From assembly GCA_947066815.1 (NCBI GenBank), contig CAMSZT010000029.1, forward strand, positions 1 to 40,147: a stretch of 40,147 nucleotides of DNA, written 5' to 3'. The notes under the pieces were generated by a model. That model made no database searches and was not told the DNA's origin. It saw only the letters and a list, made by a program, of their open reading frames with translations. The first letter of the stretch is position 1. Every line of letters begins with the position of its first letter. This DNA comes from an uncultured Lachnotalea sp. GTDB lineage: Bacteria > Bacillota > Clostridia > Lachnospirales > Lachnospiraceae. The translations under genes were made by a program, and so were the position numbers. This document shows positions 1,402 to 9,927 of this stretch, piece by piece.

Positions 1402-2964
1402 GTGGCACTTGCAGTGTATCTGAGATTGTCGCAGGATGACCTGGATCTTGGGACAAATGGATTAAAGAATGAAAGTGACAGTATTCAGAATCAACGTTTG
1501 CTGATAAAACGGTATATCAGCGGCCATGCGGATTTGGAACGGCTCCAGACCTTGGAATTTGTCGACGACGGGTATACGGGGACGAATTTTAACAGGCCCG
1601 GATTTCAGAAAATGATGAAGCTGGTCCGTTCCGGCAAGATCACATGTATTATTGCAAAGGACTTGTCCCGATTCGGGAGAAATTATCTGGAAGTCGGGGA
1701 TTACTTAGAGCATATTTTTCCGTTTCTGGGAGTCCGGTTTATTGCCGTGAATGATTCTTATGACAGTAATGGATATATTGGGACTACCGGTGGAATTGAC
1801 GTGGCATTTCGTAACTTAATTTATCAGAGATACAGTCAGGATCTTTCTGAGAAGGTAAAGTCGGCGATGCATCTGAAAATGGAAAAAGGACGGTATGTAA
1901 CGAATTGTCCATATGGATATATGAAAAAAGAAGGTGTAAAACATGAGATGATCCCGGATCCGGTCACGGCGCCCGTTGTCCAGGAGATATTCAAAGCGGC
2001 AATATCCGGCAGGAAAACGACGGAAATCGCTGCAATGCTCAATGCCAGAAAAATTCTGACACCAATGGAATATAAGAAGCTTTCCAGGTCGAATCAATAC
2101 AGTGACGTCATGTGGAGCCATCAGGCGGTACTCCGTATTATAAAAGATTATAAGTATACGGGGGCAATGGTTAATTTCAAATGTGAAAACAGGACGATAC
2201 GGGCAACCACACAGCATAGGAGGAAGCCGGAAGAATGGGTGATTGTGGAAGGAAGCCATCCGCCTATCGTAACCCATGAAGAATATGAGGCCGCAAATGC
2301 TTCCCTGCGGAAAGTGAAATATTATCTGCCCGAACATAAAGACTGCCGGGACCGGGTTTATTACTGCGGCCATTGTGGAAGACGCCTGAGAAAAACCTTC
2401 GGTACAGACGAGTATTATTCCTGCGCAACAAAATTATATCGAAAGGATGCTGTATGCAGAGAAATCAGTTGGAGCAGGACAGAGATTGAAGGGATCCTTT
2501 TAACAGCATACAAAGCCCAGCTGCAGCTGATGGATGAAGAATACCGGAAGATACCCGGGACTTACAAAGAGCGGCCGCTTCAGTCCTGCAGGCGGAAACA
2601 AAAGGCGGCTGCTTCAGAGCTTGCGGCGATCAAGGACAAAAATCTGCAATTTTATGAAAAGTTCCGGGAAGGGACTTTGACGAAGAATCAGTTTCTTCAG
2701 GAAAAGGAAAAGCTTCTCAAACGTAAAGAAGAATTGCAAAAGAAACTGGAGGTGCTGCAGGAAGAGGAAGACGATTTGAGGGAAGAGCAGGAACGGGCAT
2801 CGGAGCGCATCGGCCAGCTTGCGGCTTCCGGAGGCCTGTTGGATTTATCAGATGATGAACTGCGGAAACGAATGTATGACGAGGTAGAGCGGGTGACGGT
2901 ATACAGCTCCAGGGAAATCGAAATTGCATGGAAATTGGGAAATGTTTTTGAAACAGTGGTTTGA
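1402..2964 (+). CDS. Large serine recombinase, complete
   Basis: Second large serine recombinase, 520 aa with the chosen GTG start. The GTG at 1402 is preferred over the TTG at 1393 because the ribosome binding site GGAGGAGG (1385-1392) lies 9 nt upstream of the GTG and touches the TTG. The catalytic domain is visible: AVYLRLSQDD carries the likely nucleophile Ser10, followed by IAKDLSRFGRNYLEVGDYLEHIFPF, here split into the motifs DLSRFGRN and GDYLEHIFPF. The recombinase domain follows (PYGYMKK), then a zinc-ribbon (CGHCGRRL with later cysteines near nt 2420-2460) and a long coiled coil (about residues 400-475). The gene lies directly after another recombinase and 0.4 kb before the broken spoVT, as expected for the integration module at the end of an integrative element. 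It may act alone or as a pair with its neighbour; the sequence does not decide this. Confidence 0.92.
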   Translation: MALAVYLRLSQDDLDLGTNGLKNESDSIQNQRLLIKRYISGHADLERLQTLEFVDDGYTGTNFNRPGFQKMMKLVRSGKITCIIAKDLSRFGRNYLEVGDYLEHIFPFLGVRFIAVNDSYDSNGYIGTTGGIDVAFRNLIYQRYSQDLSEKVKSAMHLKMEKGRYVTNCPYGYMKKEGVKHEMIPDPVTAPVVQEIFKAAISGRKTTEIAAMLNARKILTPMEYKKLSRSNQYSDVMWSHQAVLRIIKDYKYTGAMVNFKCENRTIRATTQHRRKPEEWVIVEGSHPPIVTHEEYEAANASLRKVKYYLPEHKDCRDRVYYCGHCGRRLRKTFGTDEYYSCATKLYRKDAVCREISWSRTEIEGILLTAYKAQLQLMDEEYRKIPGTYKERPLQSCRRKQKAAASELAAIKDKNLQFYEKFREGTLTKNQFLQEKEKLLKRKEELQKKLEVLQEEEDDLREEQERASERIGQLAASGGLLDLSDDELRKRMYDEVERVTVYSSREIEIAWKLGNVFETVV

Positions 2965-3366
2965 GAGGAGAACCTTCTCCAATATGAAGATAAATCATTC
3001 CTGATTGACAGGATTCGCAAAATCGAATATCGTATATTACGAAAAAAGGTGCAGTAGCACCTGAATCCGTAATGGAGGGATTCTATGGAAATTCGTGGAA
3101 GATAACATTAAGGCCAGAAGAAATGAAGAAGGCATTATTACCATGGGGCTTCGCAATTTCCTGCTTGATGAAAACAGTTTAAAGATATAAGGTGAATTTT
3201 GGCCATTCAAGGATAAAATCTTGAGAAATTCGAAGTTTGTCCTAAAATATCACAAGGGGTAAGCGATTTTGGGCCAAAATCGGAGTAGCGCCGGTTGACG
3301 AGAAAAGTCGAAAAAGCCAGTAATTATGCGGCTTCGCAGATTTAGAAAAAATTTTCTTGTGAGGAC
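2965..3366. other. Non-coding right end of the mobile element
   Basis: About 0.4 kb of AT-rich DNA without a convincing gene. It contains several inverted repeats: ATTCG/CGAAT at 3013-3028, GAATCC/GGATTC at 3063-3083, and a 19-bp palindrome at 3264-3282 (arms CGATTTTGG and CCAAAATCG around one G). These could be recombinase or regulator binding sites. A short open stretch with a GTG at about 3094 encodes some 31 residues ending at 3189, but it lacks a clear ribosome binding site and a recognisable family, so it is not called as a gene. The region ends at the junction with spoVT near 3378. Confidence 0.5.
3264..3282. repeat. 19-bp perfect palindrome near element end
   Basis: Arms CGATTTTGG (3264-3272) and CCAAAATCG (3274-3282) are perfect inverted repeats separated by one base. 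The site lies about 100 bp inside the element from the spoVT junction. It could be a dimeric regulator operator or an accessory recombinase site; no function can be assigned from sequence. Confidence 0.6.
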
Positions 3367-3897
3367 TTGACACAAGCAGACGACCTTGGCCGGGTGGTGA
3401 TCCCTAAGGAGATCCGCAGGACCCTGCGGCTCAGAGAGGGGACGCCGCTGGAAATTTTTACCGACAGGCAGGGCGAGATCATCCTGAAAAAATATTCTCC
3501 CATGGCGGAACTCGGGAATTTCGCGAAGCAGTATGCGGACGCACTGGCTCAGTCTACGGGGCTTGCGGTCTGCGTCACCGACAGGGATCAGGTCATTGCG
3601 GTAGCCGGAGGGGCGAAGAAGGAGCTTCTGCAGAAGAGCATCAGCAAGGCGCTGGAGCAGTCCATCCTGAACCGGAATAATGTGCTGGCAGAGAAGGATG
3701 ACGGACAGTTCATTCCTGTGACGGACGAGGATGCGGAGGAATATTCCGGAGAAGTGACGGCGGTCATTCTATGCGAGGGGGATGCCATCGGTTCCGTCCT
3801 CTTACTTTCTAAAGATCCCAAGTACAGGATGGGGACGCTGGAACAGAAGCTGGCCCTGACGGCGGCGGGATTTTTGGGAAGACAGATGGAAAGCTGA
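3367..3897 (+). CDS. spoVT: SpoVT sporulation regulator, 5' end replaced by mobile element
   Basis: SpoVT is an AbrB-family transcription factor that acts in the forespore under sigma-G and adjusts late sporulation and germination genes. From DDLGRVVIPKEIRR onward the AbrB-type DNA-binding domain (about 40 residues) and the C-terminal GAF-like domain, ending GFLGRQMES, are intact. The total open length (176 aa) is close to the usual 178-180, but the first residues are wrong: the only in-frame start is a TTG at 3367 giving MTQA before DDLGR, whereas the family begins MKATGIVRRI. An in-frame stop lies at 3343. The GAGGA before the TTG is only about 1 nt away, too close for normal initiation. 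The first beta strand of the swapped-hairpin fold is therefore missing, and the gene is probably not expressed as a working protein in this configuration. Precise excision of the element would restore it. The following gene order (mazG, hup, rqcP, yabP) is the normal context of spoVT. Confidence 0.85.
   Translation: MTQADDLGRVVIPKEIRRTLRLREGTPLEIFTDRQGEIILKKYSPMAELGNFAKQYADALAQSTGLAVCVTDRDQVIAVAGGAKKELLQKSISKALEQSILNRNNVLAEKDDGQFIPVTDEDAEEYSGEVTAVILCEGDAIGSVLLLSKDPKYRMGTLEQKLALTAAGFLGRQMES
3370..3384 (+). other. Candidate attachment junction (attR) inside spoVT
   Basis: Similarity to the SpoVT family begins abruptly at the two Asp codons GACGAC (3379-3384). In known SpoVT proteins these residues follow a conserved N-terminal strand of about ten residues (MKATGIVRRI), which is absent here. 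Upstream DNA is AT-rich, does not encode that strand in any frame, and belongs to the recombinase element. The crossover should therefore lie at or just before 3379. Serine recombinases exchange at a 2-bp core, which may be within these bases, but the exact core cannot be fixed without the other end of the element. Confidence 0.6.
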
Positions 3898-3901
3898 CAA
3901 C

Positions 3902-4018
3902 CCTCCGGGGACCCCGCTATTGCCAGGGTCTGCCCCAGCGTAAGCGAGGGCATTCGGCGAAAAATAAGGTATCCCCTCCGGGGACCCCGCTATTGCCATT
4001 CGGCAAAAAATAAGGTAT
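3902..4018 (+). repeat. Two-copy direct repeat between spoVT and mazG
   Basis: Copy 1 (3902-3972) and copy 2 (3975-4018) both begin CCTCCGGGGACCCCGCTATT and end with CATTCGGC(G/A)AAAAATAAGGTAT. Copy 1 carries an extra block of roughly 27 bp in the middle (near 3926-3951). The copies are nearly identical, which suggests recent duplication or local gene conversion. They lie downstream of spoVT and 20-30 nt upstream of the mazG ribosome binding site; no promoter or terminator is clear inside them. Confidence 0.75.
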
Positions 4019-4041
4019 GCTTATCCGAGGAGGATAAAGAC

Positions 4042-4452
4042 ATGGAGACAAAAGAGCGATACAGCTTTGAGGAATTGAAGGAGATCATAGCCACACTCCG
4101 CTCGGAGCACGGCTGCCCCTGGGACAGGGCTCAGACCCACGGGTCCATGAAGAAATGCCTGCGGGATGAATGTGACGAGGTCCTGGAGGCCATTGATAAA
4201 GAGGATATGGAAAATCTCTGCGAGGAATTGGGGGATGTCCTTCTGCAGGTCATGCTCCACAGCAGGATCGCCGAGGAGTCTGGGGAGTTCACCGTGGAGG
4301 AGGTCATCTCCGTGCTGTGCCGGAAGCTGATCCGGCGCCATCCCCATGTGTTCGGCGGGGAAAGCTACGGGACTGCCGAGGAGAGCAGGGCCCGGTGGGA
4401 CGAGATCAAACGTCAGGAGAAAGAGGCCAGAAAGCGGGGAATCAGGCTGTAA
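4042..4452 (+). CDS. mazG: MazG-family nucleotide pyrophosphohydrolase
   Basis: Hydrolyses non-canonical or excess nucleoside triphosphates to monophosphate and pyrophosphate in the cytoplasm. The 136-aa protein is the short single-domain form. It has the CPWDRAQTH signature near residue 30, the metal-binding pattern DECDEVLEAI followed by EELGDVLLQVMLHSRIA (about residues 50-80), and RRHPHVFGGE later. In Bacillus the same locus carries yabN, a MazG domain fused to a methylase domain; here the methylase half is absent. The start is chosen because GAGGAGG (4027-4033) lies 8 nt upstream. The gene sits in the conserved spoVT-hup-rqcP neighbourhood. Confidence 0.9.
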   Translation: METKERYSFEELKEIIATLRSEHGCPWDRAQTHGSMKKCLRDECDEVLEAIDKEDMENLCEELGDVLLQVMLHSRIAEESGEFTVEEVISVLCRKLIRRHPHVFGGESYGTAEESRARWDEIKRQEKEARKRGIRL

Positions 4453-4513
4453 AACAGGCGGGGATGACGGAAACGGCAAAAACGGTAAAAACTGCGGGAA
4501 CGGAGGATTTTCC

Positions 4514-4542
4514 TTGACAAAACGCGCTTATCAGTTTATAAA
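4514..4542 (+). promoter_or_regulatory. Sigma-A promoter of hup
   Basis: TTGACA (4514-4519) and TATAAA (4537-4542) are separated by exactly 17 bp. The promoter stands about 50 bp upstream of the hup start and matches the high expression expected for HU. Confidence 0.85.
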
Positions 4543-4594
4543 TAATGGAGAGCAATATTGATTTCTATGAACAACCCTAGGAGGAACAGCTATT

Positions 4595-4870
4595 ATGAAC
4601 AAAACTGAATTGATCGCAGCAGTGGCCGAGCAGGCAGAGCTGTCCAAAAAAGATGCCGAAAAGGCAGTAGCCGCATTGGTCGATGTTATCAGCGAGGAGC
4701 TGGTAAAGGGAGAGCGGGTGCAGTTAGTCGGCTTTGGTACCTTTGAAGTGTCTGAGAGGCCGGAGAGGGACGGAAGGAATCCCAGGACCGGCGAGGCCAT
4801 GAAGATCGCGGCCTCCAGGATGCCCAGATTCAAGGTGGGCAAGGCACTCAAGGACAAGGTGAACAGTTAG
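4595..4870 (+). CDS. hup: HU-type DNA-binding protein
   Basis: Histone-like HU protein, 91 aa, which compacts and bends chromosomal DNA as a dimer. The sequence starts MNKTELIAAVAEQAELSKKD and shows the family core VGFGTFEV, the arm tip GRNPRTGE, and the C-terminal PRFKVGKALKD. The start is preceded by AGGAGG (4579-4584). The gene has its own consensus promoter (4514-4542) and a strong terminator (4889-4923), so it is an independent high-level unit inside the spoVT-yabP region. Confidence 0.97.
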   Translation: MNKTELIAAVAEQAELSKKDAEKAVAALVDVISEELVKGERVQLVGFGTFEVSERPERDGRNPRTGEAMKIAASRMPRFKVGKALKDKVNS

Positions 4871-4888
4871 ATCCCCCAGTCAGGACCA

Positions 4889-4923
4889 AAACTGCCGCAG
4901 GCATCTGCGGCAGTTTGTTTTTT
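4889..4923 (+). terminator. Intrinsic terminator of hup
   Basis: Perfect 12-bp stem AAACTGCCGCAG (4889-4900) with CTGCGGCAGTTT (4905-4916), a 4-nt loop, and a T-rich tract ending near 4923. Confidence 0.93.
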
Positions 4924-4930
4924 GCACACG

Positions 4931-5025
4931 CCGATGCAGAGGATGATATGCCGCAGGAGCGGCGCATCGGTGGTCTACGCTCCGCTTCGGTCGGTGCTAA
5001 ACGCGTGCCACCGGCACACAGCACC
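4931..5025 (+). other. Hairpin-rich stretch upstream of rqcP
   Basis: CCGATGC (4931-4937) pairs with GCATCGG (4964-4970). GGTGCT (4993-4998) pairs with AGCACC (5020-5025), and inside that stem GTGCC (5005-5009) pairs with GGCAC (5013-5017). The two structures fill most of the gap between the hup terminator and rqcP. They may form a structured 5' leader of rqcP, but no known riboswitch class is recognised. Confidence 0.4.
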
Positions 5026-5063
5026 GCGGCGAGCAGGGGGAAGAAAGCGTAAAGGAGAGGAAT

Positions 5064-5303
5064 ATGAGACTGGATAAATATTTAAAGGTTTCGCGGATCA
5101 TTAAGCGGAGGACGGTGGCAAACGAGGCCTGTGACAGCGGCCGGGTGTTTGTCAACGGGAAGCAGGCCAGAGCCTCTTTAAATGTCAAAGAGGGCGACGT
5201 GATCGAGGTGCAGTTTGGGAACCGTTCTGTGAAGGCAGAAGTCCTGAAGGTGCAGGAGAGCACCAAAAAGGAGGATGCGGGAGAGATGTTCCGTTATCTT
5301 TGA
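5064..5303 (+). CDS. rqcP: RqcP/YabO, S4-domain ribosome quality-control factor
   Basis: Small RNA-binding S4 protein of 79 aa. In Bacillus, RqcP (YabO) works with RqcH on obstructed 50S subunits to add alanine tails to stalled nascent chains. The S4 fold is plain: MRLDKYLKVSRIIKRRTVANEACDSG reads as the two S4 helices (shown here as MRLDKYLKVSR and RRTVANEACDSG), followed by GRVFVNGKQA and VKEGDVIEV. AAAGGAGAGGA ends 2-3 nt before the ATG and provides the ribosome binding site. The gene is followed by yabP, as in Bacillus. Confidence 0.93.
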   Translation: MRLDKYLKVSRIIKRRTVANEACDSGRVFVNGKQARASLNVKEGDVIEVQFGNRSVKAEVLKVQESTKKEDAGEMFRYL

Positions 5304-5310
5304 GCATCCG

Positions 5311-5339
5311 TCATAGGCCGGCCCATTTCCGCATAGGAT
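5311..5339 (+). promoter_or_regulatory. Possible sigma-E promoter of yabPQ
   Basis: TCATAGG (5311-5317) and CATAGGAT (5332-5339) are 14 bp apart. They fit the sigma-E pattern (KMATATT, 14-15 bp, CATACAHT) at its most conserved positions with four mismatches. The yabP-yabQ operon is mother-cell, sigma-E-dependent in Bacillus, so the site is in the right place. It lies about 50 bp before the yabP start. Confidence 0.45.
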
Positions 5340-5391
5340 TCAGATAGGGAGATGCCCCGACAGAGGGGGATCTGGAAGGGAGAGAGCGGGA

Positions 5392-5679
5392 ATGGAAGAG
5401 CAGAGGCAGAGGACAAAACCTCACAGGATATCGCTGGATAAGCGTTCCTACGCGGTCATAAGCGGCGTAGACGACGTGATATCCTTTGATGAAAAAGAGG
5501 TGATCCTGGAGACGACCCTTGGCCGTCTGACGGTGAAGGGGGAGGATATGAAGGTGAGCCGCCTGACGGTGGAACAGGGCGAGGTGGAGATCGGGGGCCG
5601 CGTGGACAGCCTGGTCTATTCGGAGAGCCGGGGCAGGAAGGCCCAGGGGGAATCCTTCCTGGGCCGTCTGTTTAAATGA
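5392..5679 (+). CDS. yabP: YabP sporulation protein
   Basis: YabP family, 95 aa, needed in Bacillus for normal spore coat and cortex development in the mother cell. The predicted protein is a small all-beta domain: residues 15-80 contain the family pattern SLDKRSYAVISGVDDVISFDEKEV (core GVDDVISFDE), LTVKGEDMKV and VDSLVYSE. It lies between rqcP and yabQ as in Bacillus. Its TGA stop overlaps the yabQ ATG, so the two genes are probably translated in a coupled way. A candidate sigma-E promoter lies just upstream. Confidence 0.92.
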   Translation: MEEQRQRTKPHRISLDKRSYAVISGVDDVISFDEKEVILETTLGRLTVKGEDMKVSRLTVEQGEVEIGGRVDSLVYSESRGRKAQGESFLGRLFK

Positions 5680-6461
5680 TGAGCGGCATGATCCGCCAGG
5701 AGGCGGAATTTCTTCTGGTATCCCTGCTGTGGGGAGCAGCCCTGACGGCAGTTTACGATGTGTTTCGCATCCTGAGGACGGCCGTGAGACATGCTTCTGC
5801 CGTGGTAGCGGCAGAGGATTTCCTGTACTGGATCTTCGCGGCGTTTGCTCTGTTTGTGCTGCTATTTTCCATGAATGACGGAAATCTCAGGTGGTATGCC
5901 CTGGCGGGGGCCGGGGCAGGCATGTGGCTGTACCATATCACCCTGAGCCGTTTTTTCGTGAAATGGCTGGGAGCCGCCCTCGGATTCGCCATAAAAGGAC
6001 TTGCCGCGCCCCTAAAAATCTTGGGACGGCTATTGAAAAAGCGGGCGGGATGGCTTACAATAAAAATCAGGGAGAAACAGCGTGCCGTGAGATCCGGGCT
6101 GGAGATAAAACGGGCGCAGAAAAAAGAGAGTAAACGGGAAGGTTCGGAGGAAAACTGTGGCAGGAAACAGAGAAAGAAAAAGATACAGGAAGCAGAGCAA
6201 GACCGTCATCATGGGGATCCTGCTGGTGACATTCCTGTTCTGCGGCATTCTTTTTTACAAGACGAAGGCGCTGCAGGTCAGGGACAGCCGGTACGGGACC
6301 AGGGAGACCGAACTGCAGGAGGAGATCGAGCAGGAAAAAAAGAGATCGCAGGAACTGGAAGAGCGGGAGGCCTACGTACAGACAAAAAAATACATAGAAG
6401 AGATCGCAAAGACAAAGCTGGGTCTGGTAAATCCCGGCGAGACACTCTTAAGGCCGAATGA
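5676..6461 (+). CDS. yabQ: YabQ spore protein with anomalous readthrough tail over divIC
   Basis: YabQ is a mother-cell membrane protein needed for spore cortex formation in Bacillus. Residues 1-125 look genuine: an N-terminal membrane segment (FLLVSLLWGAALTAVYDVFR), then segments near residues 45-65 and 70-90, and a basic tail rich in Lys and Arg. From about residue 150 the frame runs on for some 110 residues, covering 305 nt of the 315-nt divIC gene in a different frame. That tail has the composition of a shadow translation, not a membrane protein tail. An A6 run at 6120-6125 marks the likely boundary: a -1 slip there, or one extra A, gives AGA GAG TAA and stops at 6133, just before the divIC ribosome binding site. 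The functional protein is therefore probably about 152 aa; otherwise the overlap is real and very unusual. Confidence 0.8.
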   Translation: MMSGMIRQEAEFLLVSLLWGAALTAVYDVFRILRTAVRHASAVVAAEDFLYWIFAAFALFVLLFSMNDGNLRWYALAGAGAGMWLYHITLSRFFVKWLGAALGFAIKGLAAPLKILGRLLKKRAGWLTIKIREKQRAVRSGLEIKRAQKKESKREGSEENCGRKQRKKKIQEAEQDRHHGDPAGDIPVLRHSFLQDEGAAGQGQPVRDQGDRTAGGDRAGKKEIAGTGRAGGLRTDKKIHRRDRKDKAGSGKSRRDTLKAE

Positions 6462-6471
6462 GGAAGAATAA
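6157..6471 (+). CDS. divIC: DivIC/FtsB-like septum formation protein
   Basis: Bitopic membrane protein of the divisome, 104 aa. Family members bridge FtsL and FtsQ/DivIB and help activate septal peptidoglycan synthesis. A basic cytoplasmic N-terminus (about 20 residues) is followed by one membrane segment (VIMGILLVTFLFCGILFY, about residues 22-40). A coiled coil then runs to about residue 70 (ETELQEEIEQEKKRSQELEE), followed by the conserved extracytoplasmic end EIAKTKLGLVNPGE. The start is GTG at 6157, supported by GGAGG (6146-6150) 6 nt upstream. It is almost wholly covered by the yabQ frame. Order yabQ-divIC is conserved in Bacillus. Confidence 0.93.
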   Translation: MAGNRERKRYRKQSKTVIMGILLVTFLFCGILFYKTKALQVRDSRYGTRETELQEEIEQEKKRSQELEEREAYVQTKKYIEEIAKTKLGLVNPGETLLRPNEEE

Positions 6472-6485
6472 TGATCAATGCGGGG

Positions 6486-6521
6486 GCGGCGTGTTCCGGA
6501 GGGAACGCGGCCGCTCTTTTT
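6486..6521 (+). terminator. Intrinsic terminator after divIC
   Basis: GCGGCGTGTTCC (6486-6497) pairs with GGAACGCGGCCGC (6502-6514), with one bulge and one G-T pair, followed by TCTTTTTG. It separates the yabP-divIC unit from spoIIE. Confidence 0.85.
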
Positions 6522-6559
6522 GTCATATAAGAAACTTCGTTCCCTGCATGACAAAAAGA

Positions 6560-6625
6560 TGTCGAAAACTTTTTTCATGCGGCTCTCCCCTTTCGACAGC
6601 CTTCCCGGGACAGGACTGTTATAAT
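6560..6625 (+). promoter_or_regulatory. Spo0A-controlled promoter of spoIIE
   Basis: Two exact Spo0A core boxes are present: TGTCGAA at 6560-6566, and TTCGACA (its reverse complement) at 6592-6598. The second overlaps a -35-like TCGACA (6593-6598), and TATAAT follows at 6620-6625, giving a 21-bp spacer. Bacillus spoIIE and spoIIG are known for sigma-A promoters with abnormally long spacers activated by Spo0A, so this layout matches early-sporulation control. Confidence 0.8.
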
Positions 6626-6647
6626 AGTCTCTCAGGGAGGATTCGTT

Positions 6648-8306
6648 ATGAAAAAGGAGACATTTATCAGAGCGGTCCTGGCGATGTCCGGAGGATTTAT
6701 GCTGGCGGCATTTCTGGCGCAGGGGCGGGCCTTTGCCTCGGTCCTGCGGGCCGGGCTGTATTTCAGCGTACTGTTTACCGGCTATAAATATGGGGCGGGG
6801 ATCGGGGCTGTGGCCGGGACCGGCTGCGGGATCCTGGAAACGGTCCTGCAGGAGGATATTTCTTCCATGGGGATGCTGTGCCTGGCCGGAGTCCTGGCCG
6901 GTCTGTTTAGGAGCCTCGGGAAAACCGGGAGCGCCATGGGCTTTCTCGCCGGCGCGGCGATCCTGGGGATCCTTTATGTCCCCCAGGAGGCGCAGCCGGG
7001 GATCGGCGGCTTTTTTTCTGCGGCAGCGGCTTTTTTTCTGGTACCGGAGGATCTGTGCACCAGGGAAGAGATCCGAAGGGAGCCGGTGCGGACGTTTTCT
7101 TTTTATATGCCGGGGAAGGAGCGGACGGCGGCAGAACGGGTGAAGGCTGTCTCCGATTCCATGGAACGGCTGGCAAAAACCTTTCGGCCTCCTGAGGAGG
7201 CGCCTGAGGAGGCGGATGAGAATGTGGTGGCGGAGGGGATCCCGGTGGTTCCCGGGGATACGGCCGCCCTTTCCCTGGAGGGACTTATCTGGAAGGGCAG
7301 GTATGAGGAGTGCCGGGAGGCGGTGGCGGAAAGTTTCCGGGAAATGGAGCGGATCCTCTCGGAGCTATCCGTGGATATCGAGGCCACCGGGGACATTTCC
7401 GGGGAATACAGGGACAGGCTTTCCAGGGAGCTTAAGTTTCGGCGGGTCCGGCTCCTCGATCTGACGATCCTGGAAAAGGGCGGTGAAAAGAAGGAAATCT
7501 GTCTCCGGCTCAAAGCGGCGGGCAACCGGTGCATGACGGCCAGGGAGCTTTCCGAGGAAGTAAGCCGGATCCTGGGGGAACCGTTTGTCCCGGCCATAGA
7601 CAGCAGGAGGATCGTGACCAGGGAGGCCTGCAGCCTGCGGCTGGTGAAAGCTCCGGAATATATGATGCTCCACGGGATCTCCAGGGCTTCGAGGACGGAA
7701 AAGGAGCCCTCCGGCGACAATTTTACCTTCTGCAAACTTCCTGACGGCCGGATGCTTTTCGGGGTGGCCGACGGAATGGGTTCCGGCAGCAGGGCCTTTA
7801 AGGACAGCGAGGCGGTCATGGAGATGGCGGAACAGCTGCTTTCCAGCGGCTTTGGGCTGGAGCAGGCTCTTAAGCTCATGAATGCGGTGTTGCTCTTAAA
7901 AGAGCAGGAGCAGAGGCCCATCACCGTAGATCTGGCCGTGGCCGATCTTTACAGCGGAAGGTGCCGCTTTGTGAAAGCGGGGGGCGTGACCACTTTTGTC
8001 AAGAGGAAACGGAATATCGAGGTGATAAAAGCCGAGGGGCTGCCGGCGGGGATCTTAAGCGGCATACGGCCGGAATATCTGGAACGGAAGCTGGAGGACG
8101 GCGATAAGATCGTCATGGTGACGGACGGTGTCCTGGATGCGCTGGCCGGAGAGGACAAGGAGGAGACCATGCGGGAGATCCTCTCCTGCATTTCCGGGGA
8201 AAACCTGCAGGATGTGACCGACGAGATCCTGCGGTATGCGAAGCTTTCCGGAAAGGAATGCAGGGATGATATGACGGCATTGGCGGTGGGGATATGGAAG
8301 GCCTGA
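6648..8306 (+). CDS. spoIIE: SpoIIE phosphatase, shortened membrane domain
   Basis: SpoIIE is the stage II serine phosphatase that dephosphorylates SpoIIAA in the forespore and so releases sigma-F; it also associates with the polar septum. The protein is 552 aa against about 800-830 in Bacillus. The C-terminal PP2C-type domain is complete: SGDNFTFCKL, VADGMGSG (metal-binding Asp), a late VTDGVLD and CRDDMTALAVG. A middle region (about 140-350) corresponds to region II. The difference is at the N-terminus: only about 135 residues with some 4-5 hydrophobic segments precede region II, where Bacillus has about ten segments. The start is well supported by GGAGG just upstream and the Spo0A-type promoter at 6560-6625, so the short form is not a start-site error. 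A terminator overlaps the stop codon. Confidence 0.93.
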   Translation: MKKETFIRAVLAMSGGFMLAAFLAQGRAFASVLRAGLYFSVLFTGYKYGAGIGAVAGTGCGILETVLQEDISSMGMLCLAGVLAGLFRSLGKTGSAMGFLAGAAILGILYVPQEAQPGIGGFFSAAAAFFLVPEDLCTREEIRREPVRTFSFYMPGKERTAAERVKAVSDSMERLAKTFRPPEEAPEEADENVVAEGIPVVPGDTAALSLEGLIWKGRYEECREAVAESFREMERILSELSVDIEATGDISGEYRDRLSRELKFRRVRLLDLTILEKGGEKKEICLRLKAAGNRCMTARELSEEVSRILGEPFVPAIDSRRIVTREACSLRLVKAPEYMMLHGISRASRTEKEPSGDNFTFCKLPDGRMLFGVADGMGSGSRAFKDSEAVMEMAEQLLSSGFGLEQALKLMNAVLLLKEQEQRPITVDLAVADLYSGRCRFVKAGGVTTFVKRKRNIEVIKAEGLPAGILSGIRPEYLERKLEDGDKIVMVTDGVLDALAGEDKEETMREILSCISGENLQDVTDEILRYAKLSGKECRDDMTALAVGIWKA

Positions 8307-8332
8307 GTCCGGTCCTTCCCATATCCCTGTTT
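8288..8332 (+). terminator. Hairpin terminator at end of spoIIE
   Basis: GGGATATGGAAGG (8289-8301) pairs with CCTTCCCATATCCC (8314-8327), with one bulge, overlapping the stop codon. The following TGTTTGATT is only moderately T-rich, so termination may be partial. Confidence 0.65.
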
Positions 8333-8334
8333 GA

Positions 8335-8387
8335 TTGGCGCTGCCAGGCTTTGGACGGACATATTGGCAGAATATTCCCGCAATTGC
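8335..8387. repeat. Dispersed intergenic repeat, copy 1
   Basis: Starts TTGGCGCTG, contains the invariant core CTTTGGACGGACATATTG, then ATATTC and AATTGC. A second copy with the same order and spacing lies at 35287-35338. Both copies are in intergenic DNA 40-70 bp before a gene start; here just upstream of the tilS promoter. Confidence 0.75.
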
Positions 8388-8397
8388 CTATCCTTGT

Positions 8398-8426
8398 TTG
8401 ACTTTACGCGGGATATCAAGTATAGT
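8398..8426 (+). promoter_or_regulatory. Sigma-A promoter of tilS-hpt-ftsH
   Basis: TTGACT (8398-8403) and TATAGT (8421-8426) with a 17-bp spacer, about 30 bp before the tilS start. Confidence 0.75.
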
Positions 8427-8457
8427 AGGAACTATCAGACCTGAACGGAGGCAGTAC

Positions 8458-9927
8458 ATGCTTCGGAGAATACGGGAAACCATTGAAAGAGAGGGACTCA
8501 TAAAGGCAGATGAGCTGGTCGTGGCCGGAGTATCCGGCGGGGCAGATTCCATCTGCCTGCTCTCTGTACTTTTGGAGCTTGCGGGACGGCTCGGGATCCG
8601 GACGGCGGCTGTCCATGTCCACCACAGGATAAGGGGGGCGGAGGCGGACAGGGACGAGGCTTTTGTGAGAAAGTTCTGCGCGGGAAGGGGGGTGCCTCTC
8701 CTGGTCTATCACCGGAATGTCCCGGAGCTTGCGAAAGAGAGGGGGATCTCTCTGGAGGAGGCCGGTCGGGAGGTCCGGTACGCCTGTTTCGAGGAGGCGC
8801 TCAGGGAGCTTTCCGGCGACCGGCTGGCGGTGGCCCACAACCGGGACGACAATGCGGAGACGGTACTGTTCCGCCTGTTCCGGGGCAGCGGCCTTCGGGG
8901 GCTCTCCGGGATGGACTTTAAGGCGCCTCTCCCCTGTCTGGAGAAAACGGCCTTTGGGGCGGGGAGCTCTTTGGAAGGCGGCGGAAGCTCCGTTTTGATC
9001 CGGCCGCTCCTGGAGATCTCGAGAAAAGAGATCGAGGCGTATCTCCTGGAACGGGAGATCCCCTTCTGCCGGGACAGCACAAACGCCTCGGAGGAGTACG
9101 GCAGGAACCGGATCCGTCTGAGGATCCTGCCGGAGGCCGGAAAGATCAATGAGGAGGCGGCCGCGAACATCGTCCGGGCGGCGGGGATGTTAAAAGAGGC
9201 GGGGCGGTGGATGGAACGGGAGGCCGCGGCCTGGCTCGACGGGCAGGCCGCCTTTGAGGAGGAGGGGCCGGTCGTCCGCCTGCCGGGGGGCGCGCTGGCA
9301 GCCCTGGAACCGGCAATGTCCGGGTTGGTCCTCCGGAGCGCCCTGGAGCGGCTCACAGGGGGCCTTAAGGACGTCACGAAGCAGCATACGGACAGTATCC
9401 TGGAATTGACAAAAAAGGGGACGGGGCGGAGGATTTCCCTCCCGGGGGGAGTGACCGCGCGGAACGAGTACGGGACCCTGATCCTTTCCGGAGGGCAGGC
9501 GGGGCAGTTTCCGGAACCGGAGGACAGGATGGAGGAGCGCTTTCTTTTCCCGGAGGAAATATGGAAGGAGGAGGAGCTTTTCGGGAAAAGGTTCCGTTAC
9601 CGGCGGGTCCGGAGGAAACCGGGACAAAAAATTCCGGAAAACAGGTATACGAAATGGTTTGCGTGTGATAAAATAAAAGGTAATCTTTCTTTGCGGGGAA
9701 GACGTCCGGGAGACTGGTTTCAGGCATTTGCGGCCGGAGGGCGTCAGACTGTGAAGGCGTATATGGTCAATGAGAAGATCCCGCCGGATGTGCGGGGGCG
9801 GATCCCTCTTCTCGCGGAGGGGAGCCATGTGCTCTGGATCGCGGGCCGGAGGGCCAGCGAGGCTTACAGGGTAACGGAGGAATGCGGCTGGGTCCTGGAG
9901 GTTACGGTCTCCGGGATGCAGGAGTAG
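8458..9927 (+). CDS. tilS: tRNA(Ile)-lysidine synthase TilS
   Basis: Converts C34 of the CAU-anticodon isoleucine tRNA to lysidine using ATP and lysine, which changes both charging and codon reading; essential in most bacteria. The protein is 489 aa. The PP-loop ATP motif SGGADS is at residues 26-31, followed by VHVHHRIRG, HNRDDNAETVLFRLFRG and RPLL, then the C-terminal TilS domains including RYRRV and a late GDWF. The ATG at 8458 is preferred over an upstream in-frame start because GGAGG (8447-8451) is 6 nt before it and the protein then begins like other TilS (MLRRIRETIEREGLI). The order spoIIE-tilS-hpt-ftsH is conserved in Firmicutes. Confidence 0.95.
   Translation: MLRRIRETIEREGLIKADELVVAGVSGGADSICLLSVLLELAGRLGIRTAAVHVHHRIRGAEADRDEAFVRKFCAGRGVPLLVYHRNVPELAKERGISLEEAGREVRYACFEEALRELSGDRLAVAHNRDDNAETVLFRLFRGSGLRGLSGMDFKAPLPCLEKTAFGAGSSLEGGGSSVLIRPLLEISRKEIEAYLLEREIPFCRDSTNASEEYGRNRIRLRILPEAGKINEEAAANIVRAAGMLKEAGRWMEREAAAWLDGQAAFEEEGPVVRLPGGALAALEPAMSGLVLRSALERLTGGLKDVTKQHTDSILELTKKGTGRRISLPGGVTARNEYGTLILSGGQAGQFPEPEDRMEERFLFPEEIWKEEELFGKRFRYRRVRRKPGQKIPENRYTKWFACDKIKGNLSLRGRRPGDWFQAFAAGGRQTVKAYMVNEKIPPDVRGRIPLLAEGSHVLWIAGRRASEAYRVTEECGWVLEVTVSGMQE

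Follow-up and report, generated by a model that had tools for sequence, protein, structure and literature searches.

Why does a sporulation gene start in the middle of its reading frame, directly beside recombinase genes? The question is raised by the first kilobases of a 40,147-bp stretch from an uncultured Lachnotalea sp. (GenBank assembly GCA_947066815.1, contig CAMSZT010000029.1; hereafter the window). SpoVT is a forespore regulator, and an earlier note on this DNA had observed that similarity to it begins abruptly at codon 11 (position 3379), after AT-rich DNA carrying two large serine recombinases (LSRs). The note proposed an inserted element, possibly skin-like, that splits spoVT. The abrupt start and the interruption were confirmed by our analysis, which indicates that the window very probably contains the right attachment site (attR) of an element of the integrative and conjugative element (ICE) type. 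This element would have been inserted site-specifically by a triplet of LSRs at a GA dinucleotide in spoVT codon 11, with spoVT restored by excision.

The window comprises an entire contig (G000:C29). LSR1, the middle recombinase of the triplet, is truncated because base 1 of the window is the contig start, which falls inside the gene. It shares 54-75% identity with the middle LSR of five relatives, and LSR2, the outermost recombinase, shares 56-64% with its counterparts in five relatives. The earlier note had the element start at 1402, which is only the beginning of the second visible recombinase; the element runs left past the window, and its right boundary could be set at GA 3379-3380. Two boxes are conserved across six aligned right ends, TTTGTCCTAAAATATCAC (3236-3253) and TAATTATGCGGCTTCGCAGA (3321-3340). 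Pfam domains identify both recombinases, and base composition changes at the boundary: in 500-base intervals profiled to position 9000, GC content stays at 0.41-0.49 as far as 3250, is mixed around the junction and steps up to 0.51-0.64 over 3251-9000. The remainder of spoVT is intact, as the note had stated, with no internal stop and as the single SpoVT match in the window genome; a second complete copy elsewhere, which the note had considered, was not present in that assembly. This 3' part is 93-95% identical to the six closest congeners, with a dN/dS of 0.02-0.06 against them, a sign of strong constraint. Three-point counts by hand gave about 8 amino-acid to 27 silent changes on the window branch, versus 2:19 and 4:20; such counts do not distinguish changes before insertion from later ones, and most of the branch may predate the event.

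Uninterrupted genes are the rule among the congeners. A SpoVT match was found in 50 of 61 genomes (the window genome and 60 relatives searched), including all 10 congeners. In the regions fetched, every congener gene starts with the codons MKATGIVRRIDDLG (MKATGIVRR) and continues without a stop to the normal end. Comparison of the locus with related genomes thus agreed with the interruption proposed in the earlier note, the congeners displaying whole genes and other relatives the same junction as the window.

LSR2 was used to scan 84,980 species genomes, a search sensitive to close relatives only. It returned 10 loci, and SpoVT follows the recombinase at the same codon in five of them; L069 and L071-L074 had no SpoVT match. 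Viral-contig scans yielded at least 79 loci with a six-sequence alignment and at least 80 with SpoVT. We examined the right-end pattern in the window and 30 of 169 loci, the remaining LSR2-scan loci being checked for SpoVT by tblastn only. Thirteen contigs, the window included, carry TTGACR-N6-GA joined to spoVT codon 11. The hexamer is TTGACA in 12 and TTGACG in L099, and always lies six bases before GA. Two of the 13 (L104, L108) contain just 6-7 spoVT codons before the contig ends. Elsewhere, L110 ends three bases after the core, L100, L106, L109 and L112 end before it, and two metagenome contigs (L101, L103) stop exactly at the GA core with identical last 184 bases, as expected from an assembly branch. 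The other ten loci belong to more distant recombinases and have no junction with spoVT, though five contain the short pattern. A stricter attR pattern gave no match in viral contigs; L105 and L102 fall outside that pattern. Matching records in plasmid and phage collections (342 and 382, respectively) are all below 60% identity. One junction (L067), from a Blautia metagenome-assembled genome (MAG; G063), lies on a 5.7-kb contig of a genome with an intact spoVT elsewhere; this contig may be contamination, and we counted it among the 13 right ends and excluded it from the left ends. Two further loci were rejected, L261 as an intact spoVT-like gene and L264 as a chance match.

Element ends were also seen away from spoVT. 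In L098 (6522-6645) the right end is joined to non-spoVT sequence, and the C-terminal part of LSR2 is changed or deleted/shortened; this is a secondary insertion site. Two of the five distant loci with the short pattern, L128 and L129, have TTGACA-N6-GA about 100 bases after the recombinase with no spoVT joined to it; these are possibly related ends at other targets.

The missing 5' part of spoVT, which the earlier note expected at the far end of the element, was found there in relatives. A spoVT 5' pattern occurs once in each of the five genomes behind the five LSR2-scan loci. In G063 it belongs to the intact gene; in G061, G062, G064 and G065 it belongs to a stub whose last bases are ATHGA and which is followed by CTAMTGYGTTATAATAGGACAAGG. 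A fifth case, IMGVR_UViG_2897530398_000009 (64,246 bases; the IMGVR contig), holds both halves of the gene; their positions, 1030 for the stub and 63,734 for the 3' part, delimit an element of about 62.7 kb. The integrated stub codes for 11, 11, 11, 23 and 12 amino acids in G061, G065, G062, G064 and the IMGVR contig. Rejoining the halves at GA in silico gave an intact SpoVT of 182, 182, 180, 178 and 180 amino acids in the same order, consistent with the note's suggestion that precise excision could restore the gene. GA is common to the left (attL) and right attachment sites in all five, and is the only stretch that the chromosomal (attB) and circle (attP) sites share in every one of the five pairs, the overlap within a pair being 2 to 6 bases. 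Judged from these sequences, the place of insertion and the exactness of restoration are well supported.

What these elements encode points to conjugation in two cases. The full LSR triplet, of which the window displays two members, is present in L065, L066, L068, L070 and L105. In L065 a DUF6870 gene adjoins the triplet, and actin-like, helix-turn-helix and sigma-region-4 proteins are encoded further in. The left part of the G062 element begins with a Bro-N protein and an AAA protein, followed by a TraG P-loop (VirB4-like) protein, a type IV secretion system (T4SS) coupling protein and NlpC/P60. At the left end of the IMGVR contig element, a DUF6017/helix-turn-helix gene starts about 320 bases in and precedes DUF3801 and a T4SS coupling protein; near its right end are a helix-turn-helix repressor-like gene and an IrrE/ImmA-like protease. 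These two look like ICEs, to which the others are related through their recombinases, ends and site. The recombinase modules of G061 and G065 share 95% DNA identity over 5.3 kb, whereas the SpoVT proteins of the same hosts, compared past the core, share 63%. Such near-identical modules in divergent hosts therefore indicate a recent move between species, to the same codon in both.

Joining of the element ends is predicted to create more than a circle. At the predicted circle junction TTGACA-N17-TATAAT was found in all five cases, with TATAAT contributed by the left end in each, and we read it as a putative consensus sigma-A promoter directed into the left end. The six bases from TTGACA to GA vary among copies, and the hexamer and its fixed distance are kept. 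Alone, five attL and seven attR sites have at most 3 of 6 bases matching the partner hexamer at a spacing of 16-18. Conservation of the ends could partly reflect recombinase binding, as the ends also share short inverted boxes; inverted repeats of 9-12 bases occur between right and left ends in the relatives. The junction promoter would read directly into transfer genes only in the IMGVR element. In G062 two other genes precede the transfer genes, and by eye the nearest genes in G061 and G065 are not transfer genes.

We propose that the LSR triplet inserts the element at the GA dinucleotide of codon 11, which would leave an 11-codon stub with its sigG-type promoter on one side and a 3' part deprived of that promoter on the other. 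SpoVT should therefore be off when the element is integrated. A crossover between the two GA cores would release the element as a circle and restore spoVT exactly. Circle formation would bring the TTGACA of the right end to the TATAAT of the left end across a 17-base spacer, forming a consensus sigma-A promoter into the left end; in the IMGVR element the first genes that it meets would be DUF6017/helix-turn-helix, DUF3801 and the coupling protein. The integrated state would thus combine a silent spoVT with a split promoter, and the excised state a restored spoVT with an assembled one. We infer that excision does occur, and that it would be governed by ordinary ICE signals rather than by sporulation.

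Several results weigh against this proposal. Neither the spoVT 5' codons (searched as an exact pattern, a 2-mismatch pattern and the relatives' DNA) nor the element left end and first LSR were found in the 86-contig draft of the window genome, where only attR and the adjoining 3.4 kb of the element are visible, so that the earlier note's expectation of the missing strand (MKATGIVRRI) held in relatives and not in this assembly. A close partner of the relatives' actin-like gene was likewise not found in the window genome. Among five proteins compared, the 44.8-kb left part of the G061 element matched only with a 78-amino-acid piece of the coupling protein, and the assembled parts of the G065 element matched with none; by eye both left parts are rich in transporter genes, and other genes occupy the left end. 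No relaxase was identified in the elements. Left-end-pattern scans of the viral contigs found one real left end, joined to spoVT, and no excised junction, and looser attP-pattern matches (at least 120 loci) were rejected as ordinary promoters, none of those listed having the left end of the element. Contigs among the 13 may also be non-independent, some coming from one population. Of the four elements with long left parts, just two have confirmed conjugation genes, which makes us hold the proposal slightly less firmly; the G061 and G065 elements may be decayed, or may carry the conjugation module in their unseen middle.

The missing left side of the window genome has a likely explanation in its assembly. 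Genes syntenic with those upstream of spoVT are on C37 and C66, and on C66 (G000:C66:1-1500, L063) they are followed by a group II intron (RF02001, 113.8 bits). Since C66 ends inside this intron, within its reverse transcriptase gene, the flank in which the 5' fragment is expected has probably been lost to an assembly gap. A 16-base upstream match on C43 was judged to be chance and rejected as the 5' fragment, and an actin-like gene on C35, with 32% identity to the relatives' protein, was rejected as a part of the element.

Carriers of the insertion look like spore formers. The spoVT 3' part is stop-free in all seven carriers where it is complete, and in four of four a sigG/F-type promoter, with one mismatch to the motif, still precedes the stub. 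SpoIVA is whole in 5/5 carriers and a SigG-like protein in 4/5, all below the NCBIfam SigG cut-off. In the fifth, G061, sigG is itself split by an insertion of about 170 kb (G061:C5:57115-57426, 226978-227526; L095, L096), with both parts open and a common core TTCCCATGA; the insertion encodes a serine recombinase (Pfam) and genes that look phage-like by eye. For G061 the choice is thus between living without spoVT and sigG and excising two elements. Upstream of DUF6870 and the first LSR, a motif scan of four elements detected no sigF/G match (one mismatch) and no sigE match (three mismatches). A weak sigma-A-like TATAAT-type box lies at the same place before the recombinases in all four, with 2-3 mismatches and matches no more than shuffles.

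These data bear on whether excision belongs to the sporulation program. A skin-like developmental element would leave spoVT during sporulation, in the predivisional cell, the forespore or a subpopulation, and its circle would be kept in the spore and re-integrate, or an unexcised copy would be inherited. Exact restoration of the frame, the open 3' parts, the promoter on the stub and the retention of SpoIVA and SigG would suit such an element, and excision is known to rebuild sporulation genes (excerpts of PMC4191935 and PMC10747680). Set against this are the missing sporulation-sigma motifs before the recombinases, and an insertion that is found in none of the 10 congeners and moves between species, unlike a domesticated remnant. 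SpoVT, moreover, acts in the forespore. The cases listed in the available part of the SPbeta paper act in the mother cell (PMC4191935). We consider this reading unlikely, and developmental control possible but unsupported. The earlier note's idea of a skin-like element under sporulation control was therefore not sustained, given that relatives are ICE-like with a serine-integrase triplet and that one carries a repressor with an ImmA-like protease. A broader variant makes spoVT an integration hub by which mobile elements gate forespore development. In it, ICE excision would turn on SpoVT and the circle promoter at once, perhaps only in those cells that sporulate, and the spore would carry the circle until it re-integrates on germination; the split sigG of G061 and an apparent second integration site in spoVT, described below, are part of this picture. 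We regard it as similarly improbable.

The insertion might also be a plain knock-out, recent and rarely or irrelevantly excised, in carriers that are SpoVT-minus and losing sporulation. Its occurrence is indeed sporadic, both in the 10 loci of the LSR2 scan with five at spoVT and in the family, where none of 397 genomes, the window genome among them, contains the left-end pattern. The split sigG of G061 and the somewhat higher number of SpoVT amino-acid changes on the window branch than on its neighbours, counted by hand, also fit. The seven stop-free 3' parts, the whole SpoIVA of five of five carriers and the low dN/dS of the window copy speak against it, the last with the caution that most of the branch may predate insertion. 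This reading is conceivable but on balance rather doubtful. Much less credible is a start supplied by the element, by which a SpoVT with replaced N-terminus would be made in the integrated state from a TTG at 3367 (MTQ-A-DDLGRVV). All 13 spoVT-joined copies have the in-frame TTG, but it belongs to the conserved TTGACA and its frame follows from the fixed core. A GAGG motif precedes it by just two bases in the window, L065 and L070, whereas L066, L067 and L068 have none, and the protein would lack residues that we take to be the first strand of the DNA-binding fold. That the window starts inside a recombinase and lacks a left end could even suggest an assembly chimera of an unrelated recombinase contig and spoVT. 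This is extremely improbable, as the junction recurs in 12 other contigs; one of them spans the element from end to end, and two come from genome records whose titles do not call them MAGs. Insertion by the LSR triplet at codon 11, reversible by excision, thus remains our preferred explanation.

A different part of spoVT may serve as a second target. In G044 (L178, G044:C11, 4947-7007, minus strand) a 686-amino-acid frame fuses a large serine recombinase to SpoVT from about codon 30. In L099 (9081-9198), L102 (6037-6183) and L107 (4775-4945), spoVT follows the right end of the triplet element from codon 11 as far as GGYGACCC (codon 33), where another sequence takes over with short in-frame tails that start S-x-x-T-L; these contigs possibly hold two elements in one spoVT. 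This fits codons ~30-33 as a second site, used by another kind of element that has a single recombinase and exchanges the 3' ends of genes, with one recombinase example; a scan with the G044 LSR gave no usable relative. The candidate resembles rumA elements, which swap the 3' ends of their target genes (available text of PMC4701971).

Coordinates of the features discussed are collected in the table. Between spoVT and yabP, reading by eye placed mazG, hup and an RNA-binding protein gene. The interval from spoVT to the next gene holds two copies of a short direct repeat, CCTCCGGGGACCCCGCTATTGCC (3902-3924 and 3975-3997). The spoIIE frame (6648-8306) has 552 amino acids, matches only part of the SpoIIE_N profile and thus looks short.

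Table. Positions in the window of the element right end, the spoVT 3' part and downstream sporulation genes.
Feature	Position	Strand	Basis
LSR1, middle recombinase of triplet, N-terminal part cut by contig start	1..1400	+	Pfam Recombinase + Zn_ribbon_recom
LSR2, outermost recombinase of triplet	1402..2964	+	Pfam Resolvase + Recombinase
Element right end, non-coding	2965..3378	.	Alignment of 6 right ends, coordinates rechecked
TTGACA, -35 half of predicted circle-junction promoter	3367..3372	+	Conserved in spoVT-joined right ends
GA crossover core at bases 1-2 of spoVT codon 11 (Asp), marking the right boundary of the element	3379..3380	.	
spoVT 3' part, codons 11 to end, open reading frame intact	3379..3897	+	Pfam SpoVT_C, 167 bits
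yabP, yabQ, spoIIE, sporulation genes downstream	5392..8306	+	Pfam YabP, Spore_YabQ, SpoIIE

Jumping in or out of this site would switch spoVT off or on, and related elements occupy the same spot in several bacteria. Restoration of spoVT and assembly of a promoter are predicted to be coupled in one recombination event, and the attachment sites are markers for finding such elements. As in skin-type elements, a sporulation gene is split and exact excision would rebuild it, in silico in all five cases; unlike them, the elements here are of ICE type, reside in the gene of a forespore regulator and display no sign of sporulation control. With a target of this kind, turning on the gene would strip the element from the very chromosome that enters the spore. 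Mother-cell genes present the opposite situation, in which chromosomal loss of the element costs nothing (SPbeta paper, available part; PMC4191935). The cases listed there are mother-cell genes rebuilt during sporulation (PMC4191935); most of the known elements are prophage-like, with gin described as not. Intervening elements named in the excerpts of PMC4191935 and PMC10747680 are skin (sigK), SPbeta (spsM), vfbin (spoVFB), gin (gerE) and yin (yabG).

The closest counterparts are the triplet-serine-integrase ICEs of Streptococcus, which target mutT, traG and hsdM (Ambroset et al. 2016, PMC4701971; excerpts). There, as here, three tandem serine integrases in the same orientation occupy the element end that faces the target gene, additional genes can come between triplet and target, and the target is disrupted (PMC4701971); conjugation genes are present here in two relatives. 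Direct repeats of 2-8 bp in those ICEs compare with a 2-bp common core in our elements (PMC4701971). Two Streptococcus records in the plasmid collection have 34-36% identity to LSR2. Unlike the Streptococcus ICEs as described in that text (PMC4701971), the elements reported here target spoVT in spore-forming Clostridia, and we assign the class by arrangement, not by an integrase tree. The literature searched, which left subscription papers mostly outside its scope, yielded no report of spoVT as an insertion target. A promoter created or connected only in the circular form recalls the circle-junction promoter of Tn4451/Tn4453 and the transfer transcripts of Tn916 after circularisation, as worded in titles cited in PMC13023037. 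The Tn4451 promoter, by its title, serves tnpX (PMC13023037), whereas the predicted promoter faces the left end and the recombinases are at the right end. Collectively, these elements are best classed as a family of ICE type whose integrase arrangement is known and whose target, spoVT, is new and biologically odd.

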